Assembly: GCA_902514945.1 (NCBI GenBank)
Contig: CABXSO010000001.1
Span: forward strand, 1 to 64,000
Direction: 5' to 3'
DNA length: 64,000 bases
Origin: an uncultured Pelagibacteraceae bacterium
GTDB lineage: Bacteria > Pseudomonadota > Alphaproteobacteria > Pelagibacterales > Pelagibacteraceae
The position numbers and the translations under genes were made by a program. The notes below the pieces were generated by a model. That model saw nothing but the letters and a program-made list of their open reading frames with translations, ran no database searches and was not told where the DNA came from. Shown here one piece after another: positions 3,197-11,727 of the stretch (positions within the stretch are counted from its first letter, which is position 1; every line of letters starts with the position of its first letter).

Positions 3197-5884
3197 TCAA
3201 CCAGTATTTTTCATTGCAGCTGAAATACCAGCTATTGAGGTTAGCAAAGCGTCATTTAGATACTGTTTATTTTTAGGGTTTTTATTGACTTGAAGTTTTT
3301 TAATCACGGTAGGTTGAATAATATTTAATACCTCAGAGTATATACTTCTAGCGATAATTGGAGATCTAAATTGTTTTCTAATAACAGCAATCTCTTTAGG
3401 TGTAATTTTCTTATTCAATTTTTTAATAACATCAAATTGAAATCTAAGTTTCTTTCCAACTCTCTTTAAACTATCGTCTGCTAAATATTCTTCGTATATT
3501 TTTGATATTTCAGGATCAGCTTTTGCAATGACCATGTCTAGCGTATCAAGCATAGAATTAAAAAATGGCCAATTTTTCTCCATGTCCAATAAGGTTCTTC
3601 TAAATTTGTTTATATAAGAGTATCTTAAGGCCTCAGCACTTCCTAGCCATGCTGGAAGCATAAGTCTAATTTGTGTCCAGGCAAAAACCCAGGGTATTGC
3701 TCTTAAACTTTTTATATTATCAATATTTTTTCTTTTTGATGGTCTCGAGCCTATTGAAAGTTTTCCAAGCGCCTTGTGAGGAGTGACTGTTTCAAAGTAT
3801 TTAATAAATTCTGAACTTTGATTTATATTTTTTCTATAAGAGCTTTTAGATATATCTGACATTTTTTCGATAAGGTTTCTCCAATTATTTTTTGGGGACG
3901 GTGGTGGATTTAGAGTAGCTTCAGTTACAGCACCTATATAGCTACACAAATTATAATTAGCTAAGGGCTCATAGCCATATTTTTGCTGAATAACTTCACC
4001 TTGATCAGTAATTCTAATTTTACCGTTAACAGAGTTTGGAGGCAAAGATCTGAGAGTTGCTTGTATTGGACCGCCACCTCTTCCTGCAGATCCGCCTCGG
4101 CCATGAAAAAAAATTACATCTATTTTAAATTTCTTTGCTAAGCTGACTATTTCTTCTTGAGCCTTATACTGATGCCAGTTCGCACATATCTTACCAGCGT
4201 CCTTACTGGAGTCCGAATACCCAATCATCACCTCTTGTTTATTATTAATTAATTTTCTGTACCATTTTTGTGAAAATAAAGTTTTCATTATTGATTTTGA
4301 ATTAATAAGATCATCCAAAGTTTCAAATAAGGGAACCACTCTTAATTTATCTTTAATTTTTGCTTCCTTCTGTAAAAACAAAACAGATAATATATCAGAG
4401 GCTGAAGTTGTCATTGATATAACATATGCCCCTAAACTTTCACTCGGTTCATCAGCTAGAATTTTAAAAGTAGACCAAACCTCTTTATTTTCTTTATTTC
4501 TTATTTGTAAATCATTTATTTGATTTTTTTTTGAAAGTATTTGTTCTTTTAAGAATTCTATTCTTTTATCTTCACTAAATTTTAAATAACTTTTATTATA
4601 TCTTTTTTTTACAAACTCGTTTATCAATTGACTGTGTCTAGAAGACTCTTGCCTGATATCTAATCTTGCTAAATTAATACCAAAACATTTAGCCCTTCTC
4701 ATCAAATCTAACAATTCACCACTAGCTATATTTTCGTTTTGATTCTGCTCAAGAGACTCTCTTACTACTCTTAATGGTTTTAATATTTCTTCACGAGAAC
4801 TTATTAATTCTTTATGATTTAAAGGTTTTTTATTGACTAAATGTTGTTCGATAGATCTATGAGTTAATCGAATTTTATCTCTTAAAGGTCTTAAAAAAAC
4901 TCTATAAGGCTCAAATGATTTTCCAACTTTTTTTTGGATTTTTTTGGAGCATTTTTTCATAGAGTAAGACCTTATTATTTTTGTAAGAGCTTTCTCATAT
5001 AGTTTTGCAGCTTCCCATCTAGATAATAAAATTACTTTTCTTGTAACATCAGCAGTTACATTGGGATTACCATCTCGATCACCCCCCATCCATGAACCAA
5101 ATACTATTGGGTTAAAATTTTTTGGTAAATTTTTACCCATATTTTTTATAAATATAGAGTTTAATTTTCTGTATACTTTTGGAACTGTATCCCACAAACT
5201 ATCTTCAATTATAGCGAGTCCCCACCTAGCTTCATCAAAGGGCGATGGTCTTACTCTTTTTAAATCATCCGTATTCCAAATAACTGTCAATTCATCAAAA
5301 AGTTCTTTATCGAGTGTTTTCAATTTTGATGGAAAATTTTTTAACAACTCCCTTTGCTCAAGTATTTCAATAATCCTATGATGCTTTTGAATTAAAGTTC
5401 TTCTTTTGACCTCAGTAGGATGGGCAGTCAAAACTATACCGATATTTAAATTTTTAGCTAAATTATAAATTTTATTTTTTGAAATATCTTTTTTCCTAAA
5501 TAAATCTTCAAAAATTTCTTCAATAAATAAATTCTGTTTATTTGATTTTTTTTTGTTGTTTTCATATTGATTCAAGCTTCTGGAGGCATCAACTAATTCT
5601 GCTAAATTTATGAAATTCATAAAATGTGAAAATGCTCTTGTTAATTTAAAAGTATTTTGTGGATTAATTTTTTTTATGGCGGCAATGACTTTACTATTCA
5701 ATTTTTTTTGATTAGGATTTTTTTTGTTTACTTTTGATAATTTTCTAACATTTTCTACTAAATCAAAAAACTTTGAACCCTCCTGAGTAGCTATTACTTT
5801 TCCGAGTGTATCTCCTAAGTATTTTACATCTTCTCTTAGAAGTTTTGTTGGAATTCTCTCATAATATAGATCTTTTTTTTTCAT
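3197..5884 (-). CDS. ppc: Phosphoenolpyruvate carboxylase
   Basis: VLTAHPTEVKRRT, GSWMGGDRDGNP, FHGRGGSAGRGGGP motifs; full length. Confidence 0.97.
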   Translation of the reverse strand: MKKKDLYYERIPTKLLREDVKYLGDTLGKVIATQEGSKFFDLVENVRKLSKVNKKNPNQKKLNSKVIAAIKKINPQNTFKLTRAFSHFMNFINLAELVDASRSLNQYENNKKKSNKQNLFIEEIFEDLFRKKDISKNKIYNLAKNLNIGIVLTAHPTEVKRRTLIQKHHRIIEILEQRELLKNFPSKLKTLDKELFDELTVIWNTDDLKRVRPSPFDEARWGLAIIEDSLWDTVPKVYRKLNSIFIKNMGKNLPKNFNPIVFGSWMGGDRDGNPNVTADVTRKVILLSRWEAAKLYEKALTKIIRSYSMKKCSKKIQKKVGKSFEPYRVFLRPLRDKIRLTHRSIEQHLVNKKPLNHKELISSREEILKPLRVVRESLEQNQNENIASGELLDLMRRAKCFGINLARLDIRQESSRHSQLINEFVKKRYNKSYLKFSEDKRIEFLKEQILSKKNQINDLQIRNKENKEVWSTFKILADEPSESLGAYVISMTTSASDILSVLFLQKEAKIKDKLRVVPLFETLDDLINSKSIMKTLFSQKWYRKLINNKQEVMIGYSDSSKDAGKICANWHQYKAQEEIVSLAKKFKIDVIFFHGRGGSAGRGGGPIQATLRSLPPNSVNGKIRITDQGEVIQQKYGYEPLANYNLCSYIGAVTEATLNPPPSPKNNWRNLIEKMSDISKSSYRKNINQSSEFIKYFETVTPHKALGKLSIGSRPSKRKNIDNIKSLRAIPWVFAWTQIRLMLPAWLGSAEALRYSYINKFRRTLLDMEKNWPFFNSMLDTLDMVIAKADPEISKIYEEYLADDSLKRVGKKLRFQFDVIKKLNKKITPKEIAVIRKQFRSPIIARSIYSEVLNIIQPTVIKKLQVNKNPKNKQYLNDALLTSIAGISAAMKNTG

Positions 5885-6750
5885 TTTATTTTTTCAATAT
5901 CTTTTATTTGACTTAAAGAGTTTTTGAATTCCTCCATATTTTCTCTTAGTGCCAAATTTGAAACTGAGTAGACAGCTATTAGCAATAAAATCAAAGGTAT
6001 TGAGGTGATTATGGAAGCATTACTTTTTATCAGCAAAATATATATGATAATGAAGAACGCTGAACGAATAAGAAAAGTTTTTCTAAAAACACTTATAATT
6101 GCTAGTGAATGTTTAATTAAATTTATAAAACTCATTTTAGATGGCCCATAATATCTTGCTCCTCTTACTGAAGGAAGTGGTGTTAAATTGTCATGAACTT
6201 TTTTTAGTGAACCAGAAAAACTATTCCAGGTAGCTTTCTCATTAACTAATTTCTCAACAGTTGATTTTGGAAGGCAAGTATAGTTACCAAACTTTATTGA
6301 CTTACCTGTAAAGCTTAATGTTATTATTTTATGAAGCTGATAACAAATTTTAAATACTGTATTTTCGGATCTTCTAACTCTTTCTCCCACAAATGTTTTT
6401 CCTTTAAAGTTTTTTGCTTGATCTAAAAAATTTTTTATTTCCTCTGGTCTATCTTCACCATCCCCATCCATTGGAATAACATAGTCAAAATCCTCTTTTT
6501 CAAAAGTATATTTTAAACCTGAAGCAATAGATCTTGCATGTCCTTGGTTTTTTTTCATATTAAGAATCTTAATTGAGTCAATATTTCCCAAATTTTTTTC
6601 ATAATCTAGAGTGTCATGATTAGAAGCATCGTTAATAATAATTACGGAAATTTTAAATTCTTTATTAAGATCGAGACTATTTATTTCATCTAATAGTTTA
6701 AAAGTAGACTTCCAATCATTATAGACAGGGATTAATATCTTAATATTCAT
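5881..6750 (-). CDS. Family 2 glycosyltransferase
   Basis: ILIPVYNDW...IINDAS...PMDGDGEDRPEEI; ORF runs to 6789 but MNIKILIPVYN is the likely start; C-terminal TM segments. Confidence 0.85.
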   Translation of the reverse strand: MNIKILIPVYNDWKSTFKLLDEINSLDLNKEFKISVIIINDASNHDTLDYEKNLGNIDSIKILNMKKNQGHARSIASGLKYTFEKEDFDYVIPMDGDGEDRPEEIKNFLDQAKNFKGKTFVGERVRRSENTVFKICYQLHKIITLSFTGKSIKFGNYTCLPKSTVEKLVNEKATWNSFSGSLKKVHDNLTPLPSVRGARYYGPSKMSFINLIKHSLAIISVFRKTFLIRSAFFIIIYILLIKSNASIITSIPLILLLIAVYSVSNLALRENMEEFKNSLSQIKDIEKIK

Positions 6751-6763
6751 AAAATAATTTTCT

Positions 6764-8122
6764 TTAATATCTTCCCATACATATTTCATCTACGCAGATA
6801 AATTGGGATGAGTTTTTTATTATTTTGTCATTTGTAAATCCCTCCCATACTGGTCTGGATTTAAGATGATATGAAAGATTTCCTGCCTTCCATTCATTTC
6901 CAGTAACAAATTGTATTTCTTTATCAAAGTCTTGGTTCCATATGGCTTGAGTTTTTAGAGCAATTTCCTTTCCAGGATAATCAGTTCTCTTTTCAGTTTT
7001 ATAAATTGACTCATATAAATAGATACTCGGTGATAAGAAGAATAAAAATAAAAAACCATATAAGAATGAACTAATTTTTTTTAAATTGATTTGAGATTTT
7101 AATACATAAATAAACAGTACTCCAAAAAATAAATAAAAAGGTGTCATCCACATTGTTCTGATTTTCGAACCTGTGATTATAGAGGTAAGAAGCATTAAAA
7201 AAATAGGTAAAATATTAATTGTAAATAAAAAAAGTAATTTTTTATCCTGTAAATTAAATCTAAATTTGATTTTTTTAATTAACAACCAAACTAAGAAAAA
7301 AAATGGAATAAGTATCCCTATCTGTTTAGCCATAAATATTAATGGATATTTTATATGATTTATAATGTTTGCATTTTCTAAACCTGTTCTTTGGATTCCA
7401 TATAAAACTGTTATGAAGTTATTTTGATAAAGCCAAATTAAATGTGGAATCAATATGACTGTAAACACTTCTAAAGTAATCAAATATTTGAAATCAAATT
7501 TTTTCTTTTTTTTAAAAAAAATCAAATAAATAAATAACAAATCAATTGAAGCTAACAAATATACAAAAAGATATTTTGACAAAAAGCCTAGCGCCCCAAA
7601 TAACCCAACCAAAAAACAATCTATAAATTTAATATCTTTTGCTGAATAAATCTTCCAAGAAAAATAAACTACCAGTGCCCAAAATGGAAGTTGGCAGACA
7701 TTCACATTAAATTCTGGAGTAGTATAGTTATAAAAATAAACTGAAACTAATAAAAATACAGATAATAAACTTAGCTTAGTATCTCCTAAAATTTCATGTG
7801 CAAATTTGAAAACATAATAAAAAGCAATCCAAACAAATATCTGGCTTAGTAGATAGTAAGCCCAATCTTGAGCACCAAAAATTTGAAAAAATATCTCAGA
7901 AAAAATGGCACTCATTGGTGGATGTTTATTAAATCCCCAATCTAAGTTACTACCCCATGCTAGTGCTTCTATTGTATCTAAAGGTAAATTATTATTTGTT
8001 AATGATGGAACCAATGTCCAAATTATTAAATGAGAAAACAGGAAAATAAAAAAAATATTATTTATATTTCTGTTAAAAACATTCATAAGCAAATAATTAC
8101 AATAATTAACGTTGCTTGACAC
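6764..8122 (-). CDS. Multi-pass ArnT/PMT-like (GT39) glycosyltransferase
   Basis: Multiple TM helices, N-terminal 'DTIEALAWGSNLDWGFNKHPPMSA' typical of ArnT-like GT39 family. Confidence 0.75.
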   Translation of the reverse strand: MSSNVNYCNYLLMNVFNRNINNIFFIFLFSHLIIWTLVPSLTNNNLPLDTIEALAWGSNLDWGFNKHPPMSAIFSEIFFQIFGAQDWAYYLLSQIFVWIAFYYVFKFAHEILGDTKLSLLSVFLLVSVYFYNYTTPEFNVNVCQLPFWALVVYFSWKIYSAKDIKFIDCFLVGLFGALGFLSKYLFVYLLASIDLLFIYLIFFKKKKKFDFKYLITLEVFTVILIPHLIWLYQNNFITVLYGIQRTGLENANIINHIKYPLIFMAKQIGILIPFFFLVWLLIKKIKFRFNLQDKKLLFLFTINILPIFLMLLTSIITGSKIRTMWMTPFYLFFGVLFIYVLKSQINLKKISSFLYGFLFLFFLSPSIYLYESIYKTEKRTDYPGKEIALKTQAIWNQDFDKEIQFVTGNEWKAGNLSYHLKSRPVWEGFTNDKIIKNSSQFICVDEICMGRY

Positions 8123-8165: not shown

Positions 8166-8690
8166 ATGCCTAAAACAAGCAAAGTAAAAAAGAAGACTTC
8201 TAAAATTAAGAGTAAAACTAAGAGTAAACCTAAAATAAAAGTTATTAGTAAACCAAAGATAGTTGTAAAAACTCCAATCAAAATTTCAAAAAATTATATT
8301 CCCAAGGATAATGAGAAATACATGTGTGAAAAACATAAGGTTTTTTTTAGAATAAAATTGCAAGATTGGCGAAAAGAGCTAGTGAAAGCAAATAATGAAG
8401 CTTTGTATAATGGGAGTATGGACGATAATAGTATTTCCGCAGACATTGTTGATCAAGCAAGTTCGTATACTGACAAAAATGTGGAAATGAAAGCAATCAA
8501 TAGACAAATAAAATTAATATCGGAAATTGATAAAGCTTTAATAAGAATTAAAGACGATACTTATGGTTATTGTCTTGATACAGCTGAGCCTATTGGGTTA
8601 AAAAGACTTATGGCGAGACCGGTAGCAAAGTATACTATTGCTGCACAAGAGAAACATGAAAAGAATGAAAAAGTTCACGCAGATGACTAG
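8166..8690 (+). CDS. dksA: DksA-family RNA polymerase-binding regulator with Lys-rich N-terminal extension
   Basis: YGYCLDTAEPIGLKRLMARPVAKYTIAAQEKHE; internal Met start MPKTSKVKKK preferred over the 8112 ORF start. Confidence 0.88.
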   Translation: MPKTSKVKKKTSKIKSKTKSKPKIKVISKPKIVVKTPIKISKNYIPKDNEKYMCEKHKVFFRIKLQDWRKELVKANNEALYNGSMDDNSISADIVDQASSYTDKNVEMKAINRQIKLISEIDKALIRIKDDTYGYCLDTAEPIGLKRLMARPVAKYTIAAQEKHEKNEKVHADD

Positions 8691-8808
8691 AAAAAATAAA
8701 AAAAAGAAAAAAGTCCATAATCCAGTAACTTATTATTTTACGAAAAAGTATATATTTTATTATTATGGTTTTTTTTGGATAATTTTGTTATTTATTGTAT
8801 TTAGTTAA
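8683..8808 (+). CDS. Putative 41-aa basic plus one-TM micro-protein
   Basis: MTRKNKKKKKVHNPVTYYFTKKYIFYYYGFFWIILLFIVFS*; ATG overlaps the dksA 3' end; absent from the supplied ORF track. Confidence 0.5.
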   Translation: MTRKNKKKKKVHNPVTYYFTKKYIFYYYGFFWIILLFIVFS

Positions 8809-8912
8809 TGGATACAAAAATAATCTTAATAATTATTATTGTCCTTGCTATAGAGGTCTCAGGTCACGGAATTTTTGCCTCTTTATTTAGATTACTTTCT
8901 TCAATGAATTAA
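8808..8912 (+). CDS. Putative 34-aa hydrophobic micro-protein
   Basis: MDTKIILIIIIVLAIEVSGHGIFASLFRLLSSMN*; start shares one base with preceding stop (TAATG). Confidence 0.45.
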   Translation: MDTKIILIIIIVLAIEVSGHGIFASLFRLLSSMN

Positions 8913-9538
8913 TATGGTTTAGGTGGTTTCTCGCTTTCATTCATAAATGCAAATCCTCTTTTAACGCTATCTCTTTCAGAAATCTCCTCATACCATCTAG
9001 TGAGATTTTTAAAATTTTTAAGTCCAATATCATGCCATTCATGCCTTGCTATCCATGGAAATGTACCGATGTCTGCAATTGTATAATTATCTCCTGATAA
9101 GTATTTTGATACAAACAACCTATCATCTAATTCTTGATATATTCTTCTGGAAATTTTAAAATATCTATCTTCACCAAATTTACTTTTTCCAGGATTATAA
9201 TGATGAAATTGATGGTGTTGACCTAACATTGGGCCCACATATCCCATTTGAGCCATAAGCCATTGATTAATTTCCAATCTTTCCTCAGAATTATAAAATT
9301 TTCCACTTAGTTCAGCTAAGTAAATCAATATTGCACCAGATTCAAAGATTGTTTTTTTATTCTTATGGTCAATAATTACTGGGATCTTACTTAAAGGACT
9401 AATTTTTTTAAAATCTTTTTTAAATTGTTCACCATTTTCAATATCAACCTTGATTACCTTGTAATCAAATCCAATTTCCTCAAGCATAATACTAATTTTT
9501 TTACCGTTAGGTGTATTAGCTGAAAAAAGATCTATCAC
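8909..9538 (-). CDS. Glutathione S-transferase family protein
   Basis: MIDLFSANTPNGKKISIMLEE..., SGAILIYLAE thioredoxin-fold motif, DNYTIADIGTFPW C-terminal domain. Confidence 0.9.
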   Translation of the reverse strand: MIDLFSANTPNGKKISIMLEEIGFDYKVIKVDIENGEQFKKDFKKISPLSKIPVIIDHKNKKTIFESGAILIYLAELSGKFYNSEERLEINQWLMAQMGYVGPMLGQHHQFHHYNPGKSKFGEDRYFKISRRIYQELDDRLFVSKYLSGDNYTIADIGTFPWIARHEWHDIGLKNFKNLTRWYEEISERDSVKRGFAFMNESEKPPKPY

Positions 9539-10551
9539 TCTTTTTTACCTAATCTTTTTAATAAGTTTGTTGATGTTGTTGTGAATTCAAATCTATATTT
9601 TTCATTAGGTCTTGCTAGCTTAAAACATGCTCTCGCTGCTAAAGCGCCCTCATGAAAACCTGACAAAATTAATCTTAATTTTCCAGGGTAATTACAAATA
9701 TCTCCTACAGCATAGATACCCTTTTGATTTGTTTCAAATTTTTCAGTATCCACTTCAATAGTTTTTTTGTTTAGATTAAGGCCCCAATTAGCAATGGGTC
9801 CTAACTGCATAATAAGACCAAAAAAACCTAGAACATAATCAGTCTTTAAGTTTTTTATCTCACAATTATCATGCTTAATGTCTATACTCTCTAATTTCTG
9901 ATCTCCATGCACATTGGTAATTTGATACTTTGTAAAAAGATTTATTTTGCCACCTTTTTTAAGTTCATACATTTTATCTACTGTTGCTTGTGCACCTCTA
10001 AATTCATCTCGTCTGTGTATCAAGTTAACATCACATTCTTTTGATAACTCAACAGCCCAATCTAATGCGCTATCTCCACCTCCAAAAATTGAAACCGTTT
10101 TTCCTCTGAACATGTTTTTATCTTTTACTGAGTAAAATAATGATTTATTTTCAAATTTTTCAAAATCTATTGGTGAAAATTTTCTAGGTTCGAATGATCC
10201 AACGCCACCTGCAATTATTACATTTGGGGTCAAAAAAGTATTCCCTCCACTAGTTTTTACCAACCAGTTATTGTCTTCTTTTTTTACTTCTTCAACTCTT
10301 TCACTTAAATGAAATTTAATATCAAAAGGTTTTAATTGATTTAACAAATTACTGGTAAGTTCTTCTCCAGTACACTCCGGTACTGCAGGTATATCATAAA
10401 TTGGCTTATCAGGATAAAGTTCGATACATTGCCCACCAATTTTATCTAAATTATCAACTATCTCACAGTCTAATCCAATTAATTTAAGTTGATGAGCAGT
10501 GAATAATCCTGTCGGACCTGCTCCAATAATTAATGCATCAGTTTTATTCAT
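9535..10551 (-). CDS. TrxR-like ferredoxin--NADP+ reductase
   Basis: IIGAGPTGLFTAHQL, GGGDSALDWA, AVGDICNYPGKLRLILSGFHEGALAA; lacks a CxxC redox pair; adjacent ferredoxin. Confidence 0.88.
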   Translation of the reverse strand: MNKTDALIIGAGPTGLFTAHQLKLIGLDCEIVDNLDKIGGQCIELYPDKPIYDIPAVPECTGEELTSNLLNQLKPFDIKFHLSERVEEVKKEDNNWLVKTSGGNTFLTPNVIIAGGVGSFEPRKFSPIDFEKFENKSLFYSVKDKNMFRGKTVSIFGGGDSALDWAVELSKECDVNLIHRRDEFRGAQATVDKMYELKKGGKINLFTKYQITNVHGDQKLESIDIKHDNCEIKNLKTDYVLGFFGLIMQLGPIANWGLNLNKKTIEVDTEKFETNQKGIYAVGDICNYPGKLRLILSGFHEGALAARACFKLARPNEKYRFEFTTTSTNLLKRLGKKE

Positions 10552-10872
10552 TTAAGCTTGTTTGGATGGTATGTTCACTTCAAGTCCGTCAATATCATCT
10601 GAAACAACTATTTGACAACTAAGCCTACTATTTGCTCTCGGTTCAAATGCCATATCTAACATATCATCTTCTCCATCTTCTTTCTTTGGAATTTTATTAA
10701 ACCAATCTTCTTTGACATAAACATGGCAAGTTGCACAAGCCATTCCTCCACCACAGTCAGCATCTATACCTGGTATATCATTTTGAACAGCACCTTCCAT
10801 CACGGTTAAGCCATTTTGAACTTCTATGGTATGTTTTTCATTATCATGCGTGATGTAAGTGATTTTAGCCAT
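10552..10872 (-). CDS. Adrenodoxin-type 2Fe-2S ferredoxin
   Basis: [14 protein letters not shown] (CX5CX2C) plus distal RLSCQIVV Cys. Confidence 0.92.
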
Positions 10873-10889
10873 TAGGGGAATATAGGGCT

Positions 10890-10929
10890 AAAAAAAAATA
10901 GGGCAAGTATGCAAAACATACTCGCCCTA
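10890..10929 (-). terminator. Intrinsic terminator downstream of proteorhodopsin
   Basis: Minus-strand RNA: UAGGGCGAGUAUG-UUUUG-CAUACUUGCCCUA-U9; 13-bp stem with one G-U followed by a T tract. Confidence 0.85.
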
Positions 10930-10950
10930 TAAATTTAGTCTAAATAGTAA

Positions 10951-11727
10951 TTATCTAGCTCTTGCACCAGCTCCAGAACTCATTGCAGCAGCCCAGATTA
11001 CTAGACCAAAAGCAATTTTGTTAATGAAGTCAGCTAAGTTGTAAACAACGTTTAATGAGTTAGCATCTACACCACCTGTTAAGTAACCAAATACATAACC
11101 TAATGGATAAATTGCCCAACCTACAGTTACAATCATTCTCATTGCACCGAACGCTGTTACTAGAGCTTTATTTCCGCTTTTAGCGGCAGCTCTTCCAGCT
11201 TCACCAGAGAATATTTCATAAAGAATGTAGATCCATCCAGCCATACCGATTACAAAACCAAGTGTAGCATTAATGTATCCAGCTTCTCCTAAATATCCAC
11301 CGATTAACATTACTAATGAACCGATTAACAATCTCCAGAACATTCCAGAATTTGCTTTTCTTACTGCTACTAAGATTAAGTAGAACTCTACCATCTGTAG
11401 TGGCACAGTAATTAACCAGTCAATATATCTGTAAACTGTTGGTGAGTCACCTGTAGCAACCCATACTTCTCTCATGTACATATAGTGAATGAAAGCGATA
11501 CCAGTTACTAGACCAGCAACAGTTACTGATGTTTTCCACGCAGGGTTAACAGTACCTCTTTCCATAAAGAAAAAAGCTGTACTCGCTAACATACCCATTG
11601 AAATTATCCAAAAAGATATTCCAACAAAGTCGTCCTGAGCCAACATCGTTGCGTCTGCTGCATTAGCAACACCTGCATATCCCACTAGGGCCACAGCTGC
11701 TAGAGCAAACATTTTAAGTTTTTTCAT
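10951..11727 (-). CDS. Proteorhodopsin, light-driven proton pump
   Basis: Signal peptide; RYIDWLITVPLQMVEFYLIL (Asp acceptor, Glu donor, Gln tuning residue); helix G VYNLADFINKIAFGLVIW retinal Lys. Confidence 0.98.
   Translation of the reverse strand: MKKLKMFALAAVALVGYAGVANAADATMLAQDDFVGISFWIISMGMLASTAFFFMERGTVNPAWKTSVTVAGLVTGIAFIHYMYMREVWVATGDSPTVYRYIDWLITVPLQMVEFYLILVAVRKANSGMFWRLLIGSLVMLIGGYLGEAGYINATLGFVIGMAGWIYILYEIFSGEAGRAAAKSGNKALVTAFGAMRMIVTVGWAIYPLGYVFGYLTGGVDANSLNVVYNLADFINKIAFGLVIWAAAMSSGAGARAR

Follow-up and report, generated by a model that had tools for sequence, protein, structure and literature searches.

Gene organization of the locus

The window analyzed here is the 64,000-nucleotide stretch of contig CABXSO010000001.1 from an uncultured Pelagibacteraceae bacterium, in which two very small open reading frames, denoted ORF1 and ORF2, lie between dksA and a convergent GST gene:

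5881-6789 (of the 5881..8122 block), minus strand: GT2 glycosyltransferase gene (Pfam Glycos_transf_2), divergent from dksA
6764-8122 (of the 5881..8122 block), minus strand: GT39/PMT_2 glycosyltransferase gene (Pfam PMT_2), divergent from dksA
8166..8690, plus strand: dksA, 174 aa (Pfam DksA_N, 1.2e-12; zf-dskA_traR, 6.8e-8), the first gene of the run dksA-ORF1-ORF2 in this lineage
8683..8808, plus strand: ORF1, 41 aa, MTRKNKKKKKVHNPVTYYFTKKYIFYYYGFFWIILLFIVFS (tblastn and profile matches in relatives, dN/dS, AlphaFold2, hydropathy)
8808..8912, plus strand: ORF2, 34 aa, MDTKIILIIIIVLAIEVSGHGIFASLFRLLSSMN (tblastn and profile matches, dN/dS, AlphaFold2, invariant columns)
8909..9538, minus strand: convergent GST gene, the downstream boundary, with TTAA in common with the ORF2 stop

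The 3' end of dksA reads ...GCA GAT GAC TAG, with the stop codon at 8688-8690, and the ATG of ORF1 at 8683-8685 thus overlaps dksA by 8 nt. ORF1 ends with TAA at 8806-8808, sharing one base with the ATG of ORF2 at 8808-8810 (TAATG), and ORF2 ends with TAA at 8910-8912, overlapping the GST gene by 4 nt, with both stops within the palindrome TTAA. All ORF coordinates, lengths and junctions in the initial annotation of this DNA agree with this direct reading. The GST gene belongs to a run that also includes thioredoxin-reductase-like, ferredoxin and proteorhodopsin genes (8909-11727 in the window); this run adjoins dksA and is kept in nearly all loci of the family.

Evidence that ORF1 and ORF2 are protein-coding genes

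The searches recovered 109 distinct ORF1-ORF2 loci, of which 105 are located behind dksA, and not a single in-frame stop is present in either frame across these loci. Nei-Gojobori counts for 52 near-neighbour pairs yield in-frame dN/dS values of 0.036 for ORF1 and 0.090 for ORF2, next to 0.022 for dksA (its last 120 codons); in the same comparison, the other two frames give values of 1.2 to 3.9, i.e., above 1. The initial annotation had proposed two tiny hydrophobic proteins here and named frameshifts, stops or dN/dS near 1 as the signs of a spurious assignment; the absence of stops, the purifying selection and the conservation in relatives bear out the proposal.

The spacing between ORF1 and ORF2 is -4 nt in 80 loci, -1 in 17 and 0 in 11 (one of these three values in 108 of the 109), and the 8-nt overlap between dksA and ORF1 is kept in 83 of the 105 dksA loci. 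The median distance between the dksA and GST stops is 220 nt with the pair in place, compared with -4 to +2 nt in 32 of the 38 loci in which the pair is missing or located elsewhere. Given that the spacer shrinks to abutting stops without the pair, the gap exists because of ORF1 and ORF2, in accord with the earlier claim that the two frames fill the 220-bp interval. Open frames are common in short, very A+T-rich DNA, so that this spacer might be thought to hold spurious ORFs or a structured RNA; however, codon-level selection confined to one frame already refutes this reading, the protein profiles are conserved across many unrelated contexts, and the spacer is usually gone where the ORFs are gone, which leaves such an explanation with a negligible probability. 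As judged by comparative sequence analysis, ORF1 and ORF2 are genuine, strongly conserved small genes.

Predicted structure and sequence searches

ORF1 has a Lys-rich, variable N-terminal tail (net charge +9) and one membrane helix predicted from hydropathy at residues 14-40; the AlphaFold2 model is a single helix over the same residues, with a pLDDT of 77. The core of the protein matches F-x-K-K-Y-I-x-x-Y-Y-x-F-F-W, and Tyr27, Tyr28, Trp32 and Lys22 are the most conserved positions. By the positive-inside rule, the Lys-rich tail is predicted to be cytoplasmic. In two genomes (G251 and G282, loci L251 and L252), the ORF1 homologue is C-terminally extended, to about 73 aa (...SSNSNKELSMHQKNINDFKKAAEFINRNSSKN), so that, going by these sequences, members of the family can have an additional soluble tail.

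The AlphaFold2 model of ORF2 (pLDDT 88) consists of a hydrophobic helix at residues 3-17, a break at 18-21 (S-G-H-G) and a short helix at 22-33. The break coincides with the motif I-E-x-S-G-x-G, in which Ile15, Glu16, Ser18, Gly19 and Gly21 are invariant; Arg28 is nearly so. Thus, ORF2 is predicted to be a short membrane helix that ends in an invariant buried glutamate and an S-G-x-G kink, followed by a second helix. The hydrophobic stretch ahead of the glutamate is short for a full membrane span, and given this length, the protein might be monotopic. That the hydrophobic stretch is interrupted midway by an acidic residue and a glycine break suggests that ORF2 packs against a partner or makes a polar contact with it.

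Searches of Pfam and NCBIfam with ORF1 and ORF2 at relaxed E-values gave chance-level matches only (Renin_r, Ac81 and others), as did the search of PHROGs, which was run with ORF2 alone. Profile searches of the PDB sequences gave no match, and two scans of IMG/VR viral contigs identified no confirmed relatives. The CydX, KdpF, AcrZ, COX4_pro_2 and CcmD families are absent from the Pfam and NCBIfam matches, where short models can miss distant members. The lack of matches for ORF1 and ORF2 in the searched libraries is probably due to their length of only 31-45 aa. In the literature searched, neither a description of these peptides nor a survey of SAR11 small proteins was found.

Genomic context

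Contig scans of the genomes of relatives, anchored on DksA, show that in nearly all loci of the crown clade, the pair is located behind dksA with the overlap conserved; in the tree of four neighbouring proteins, this arrangement falls within a derived clade. In the same genus, the basal lineages (G010, G016, G023, G225, G226 and relatives) have ORF2 between the GT39 (PMT_2) and GT2 genes, where it overlaps or abuts both of them, and ORF1 lies apart from it, before an agmatinase-like gene, after an aldehyde dehydrogenase gene near a CcdA-like gene, or after an SDR gene. In G002, G019 and G171, the gene ahead of the pair encodes a 275-aa (phytanoyl-CoA-dioxygenase-like) protein and adjoins GST, with other genes inserted before it, after dksA; in G224, the pair is located behind carB, at a distance of about 60 kb from dksA; and in G114 and G322, ORF2 alone is located behind dksA. 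In the sister genus (g8), ORF1 is found between the proteorhodopsin and ferredoxin genes and ORF2 several kilobases away. Divergent ORF1 homologues of this genus, e.g., at L146 10840-10992 (G301) and L290 5530-5664 (G288), are probably unannotated.

In SAR11, the content of the dksA-GST interval varies (L074 in G002, L075 in G019, L161 in G223, L154 in G171, L082 in G222); the inserts in different genomes include amino-acid ABC transporter genes, the phytanoyl-CoA-dioxygenase-like gene, a TPR-like gene and a gene of 261 aa.

The initial annotation had described a dksA-linked cassette. A pair that adjoins dksA and is probably co-translated is indeed what is seen in the derived clade, but a functional link to dksA is not supported, considering the other contexts (e.g., in G002, G010, G016, G171, G224, G225 and the sister genus), and the dksA neighbourhood is not kept family-wide. 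Placement behind dksA in a single lineage, with other contexts elsewhere, points to an expression arrangement and is not evidence for a role in the stringent response. Judging by co-occurrence, it is the partnership of ORF1 and ORF2 that is conserved, and not proximity to dksA.

Phyletic distribution and joint loss

ORF2 is present in 179 of the 218 genomes of the genus that are at least 85% complete, and no ORF1 or ORF2 was detected in about 238 genomes of other Alphaproteobacteria. Among the 93 genomes of the family that are at least 90% complete, 62 encode both proteins, 8 ORF1 only, 4 ORF2 only and 19 neither (Fisher p 4e-10, a test that ignores relatedness); in the subset with the dksA locus assembled, the respective counts are 62, 2, 3 and 14. 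Most of the single-ORF cases coincide with assembly gaps, and wider profiles recovered a divergent ORF1 in most genomes that at first appeared to have ORF2 only. The remaining exceptions are ORF1 without a detectable ORF2 in G157 and G321, and ORF2 without ORF1 in G226, G318 and G322. G157, G321 and G008 (L157, L156, L068; L274-L276) form a tight clade in which ORF1 precedes the agmatinase-like gene and no ORF2 is recognizable, as determined by whole-genome search for G157 and G321 and at the GT39-GT2 locus alone for G008; in this clade, either ORF2 is too divergent to be identified or ORF1 can be kept without it. An ORF2-like match in G284 (L265/L287) was rejected as the antisense of the GST end and is no homologue.

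Both genes are missing in G222, G317, G098, G012 and G219, four of which are single-contig genomes, and these fall on about five separate branches of the tree, which implies, on this sequence-based phylogeny, about five joint losses. Thus, the two genes tend to disappear jointly, although in many lineages they are not adjacent, and these separate losses are a better argument for partnership than the Fisher test. The near sisters G172 (L066), which has the pair, and G098 (L080), in which the dksA and GST stops directly abut, appear from their sequences to represent a recent clean loss.

Functional prediction

The presence of both genes or neither, the repeated joint loss, the stop/start overlaps and the purifying selection at the protein level, in the apparent absence of a fixed neighbour, are best compatible with two inner-membrane microproteins that work as one functional unit and probably either regulate a larger membrane complex or serve as its accessory subunits; this is the reading that we favour, with some reservation. 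ORF1 and ORF2 would associate with each other, and the pair would probably serve a transporter or an energy enzyme, considering the analogy with CydX, KdpF and AcrZ and the lack of any activity domain. As suggested by the 8-nt overlap followed by ATGA or TAATG, translation of ORF1 and ORF2, which are placed as the tail of dksA, may be coupled to that of the upstream gene, and such coupling would spare them a promoter or ribosome-binding site of their own. A partner search that compared the complete genomes G218, which has the pair, and G219, which does not, and covered 400 kb of G219 yielded no convincing membrane candidate; the 32 genes found only in G218 within syntenic blocks include ordinary variable genes (by eye, sugar-transporter, msrA- and msrB-like).

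The best local candidates for such a partner are GT39 and GT2, given the location of ORF2 between them in the basal lineages, where it overlaps or abuts both, and even in the dksA lineage no more than about 0.6 kb separates the pair from GT39. ORF2, with or without ORF1, could accordingly be a small subunit of the polyprenyl-phosphate-sugar machinery that aids, e.g., sugar transfer or flipping. However, genomes that lack both peptides (G012, G098, G219 and G222) retain GT39 and GT2, which argues against an obligatory role and leaves no consistent co-occurrence, and ORF2 is separated from these genes by about 7 kb, with PR and ACS in between, in the sister genus and by about 60 kb in G224; this possibility is accordingly regarded as unlikely. 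A marginally lower probability is assigned to a self-sufficient pair, i.e., a minimal two-component membrane device built around the buried glutamate of ORF2 and acting in proton or ion conductance or as a membrane-stress or curvature factor. Such a device would fit the strict pairing, the lack of a fixed neighbour, and the invariance of Glu16 with S-G-x-G in the ORF2 helix of all members, but the single-helix small proteins studied so far, CydX and AcrZ among them, are mostly helpers of larger complexes.

That the pair follows dksA, with the overlap conserved, in nearly all crown-clade loci might also indicate a dedicated cassette whose peptides act in DksA/ppGpp signalling, e.g., by linking the stringent response to the membrane. 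This is improbable given that both genes are away from dksA in the basal members and the sister genus, that the pair also follows the 275-aa gene and carB, and that some genomes, including several complete ones, have dksA and lack both peptides. Even less credence is due to a selfish pair of type I toxin-like or holin-like membrane peptides: the tiny size, hydrophobicity, shifting location and repeated loss are all reminiscent of such elements, but the strong purifying selection, the coupling to housekeeping genes and the presence in 179 of 218 genomes of the genus are not, and no toxin or holin family was matched in Pfam, NCBIfam or (for ORF2) PHROGs and no relative found in the IMG/VR contigs.

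A bolder and quite speculative reading can also be formulated, namely, that two hitherto undescribed microprotein families make up an obligate two-part membrane device of two SAR11 genera, which combines a helix with an intramembrane glutamate and a Lys-tailed aromatic helix, acts alone or on an energy or transport complex of SAR11, and changes its genomic position, whole or in parts, by attaching to the ends of unrelated genes.

SAR11 bacteria belong to the most abundant cells of the ocean, and their genomes serve as a reference for minimal free-living organisms; ORF1 and ORF2 are two strongly selected gene families of this group without a match in the family libraries searched. The pairing of ORF1 and ORF2 despite shuffled positions makes for a directly testable protein partnership, and the locus illustrates that what looks like a short gap in a streamlined genome can consist of real genes: the interval closes up once they are gone.

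Comparison with known small membrane proteins

Single helices of the ExbD/TolR/MotB type contain a buried acidic residue. The likeness of ORF2 to these proteins lies in the invariant acidic residue (Glu16) in its only hydrophobic helix; unlike them, ORF1 and ORF2 have no periplasmic domain, no sequence match to these families and, in the examined loci, no ExbB/TolQ/MotA-like neighbour. Subunit IV of the alphaproteobacterial aa3-oxidase (COX4_pro_2) and orphan subunits of the CcmD type are proteins of about 40-50 aa with one helix that are sometimes encoded away from the main operon. In contrast to these, ORF1 and ORF2 have no Pfam match and are missing altogether from some genomes of the same genus, which indicates that they are not core respiratory subunits.

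Further parallels are CydX (YbgT_YccB), KdpF and AcrZ, which, like ORF1 and ORF2, are 30-50 aa long and mostly contain one helix. CydX, encoded as an operon tail, conserves few residues and is difficult to annotate (PMC4325964, PMC6005532), and AcrZ binds to the membrane portion of a large transporter (PMC7267776). ORF1 and ORF2 differ from these proteins in that they have no sequence match to them, no oxidase, transporter or pump gene adjoins them, and there are two mutually dependent peptides rather than one. Judged by their sequences, ORF1 and ORF2 are new families of a known kind of small single-helix membrane proteins, and what sets them apart is their strict pairing across shuffled genomic positions.
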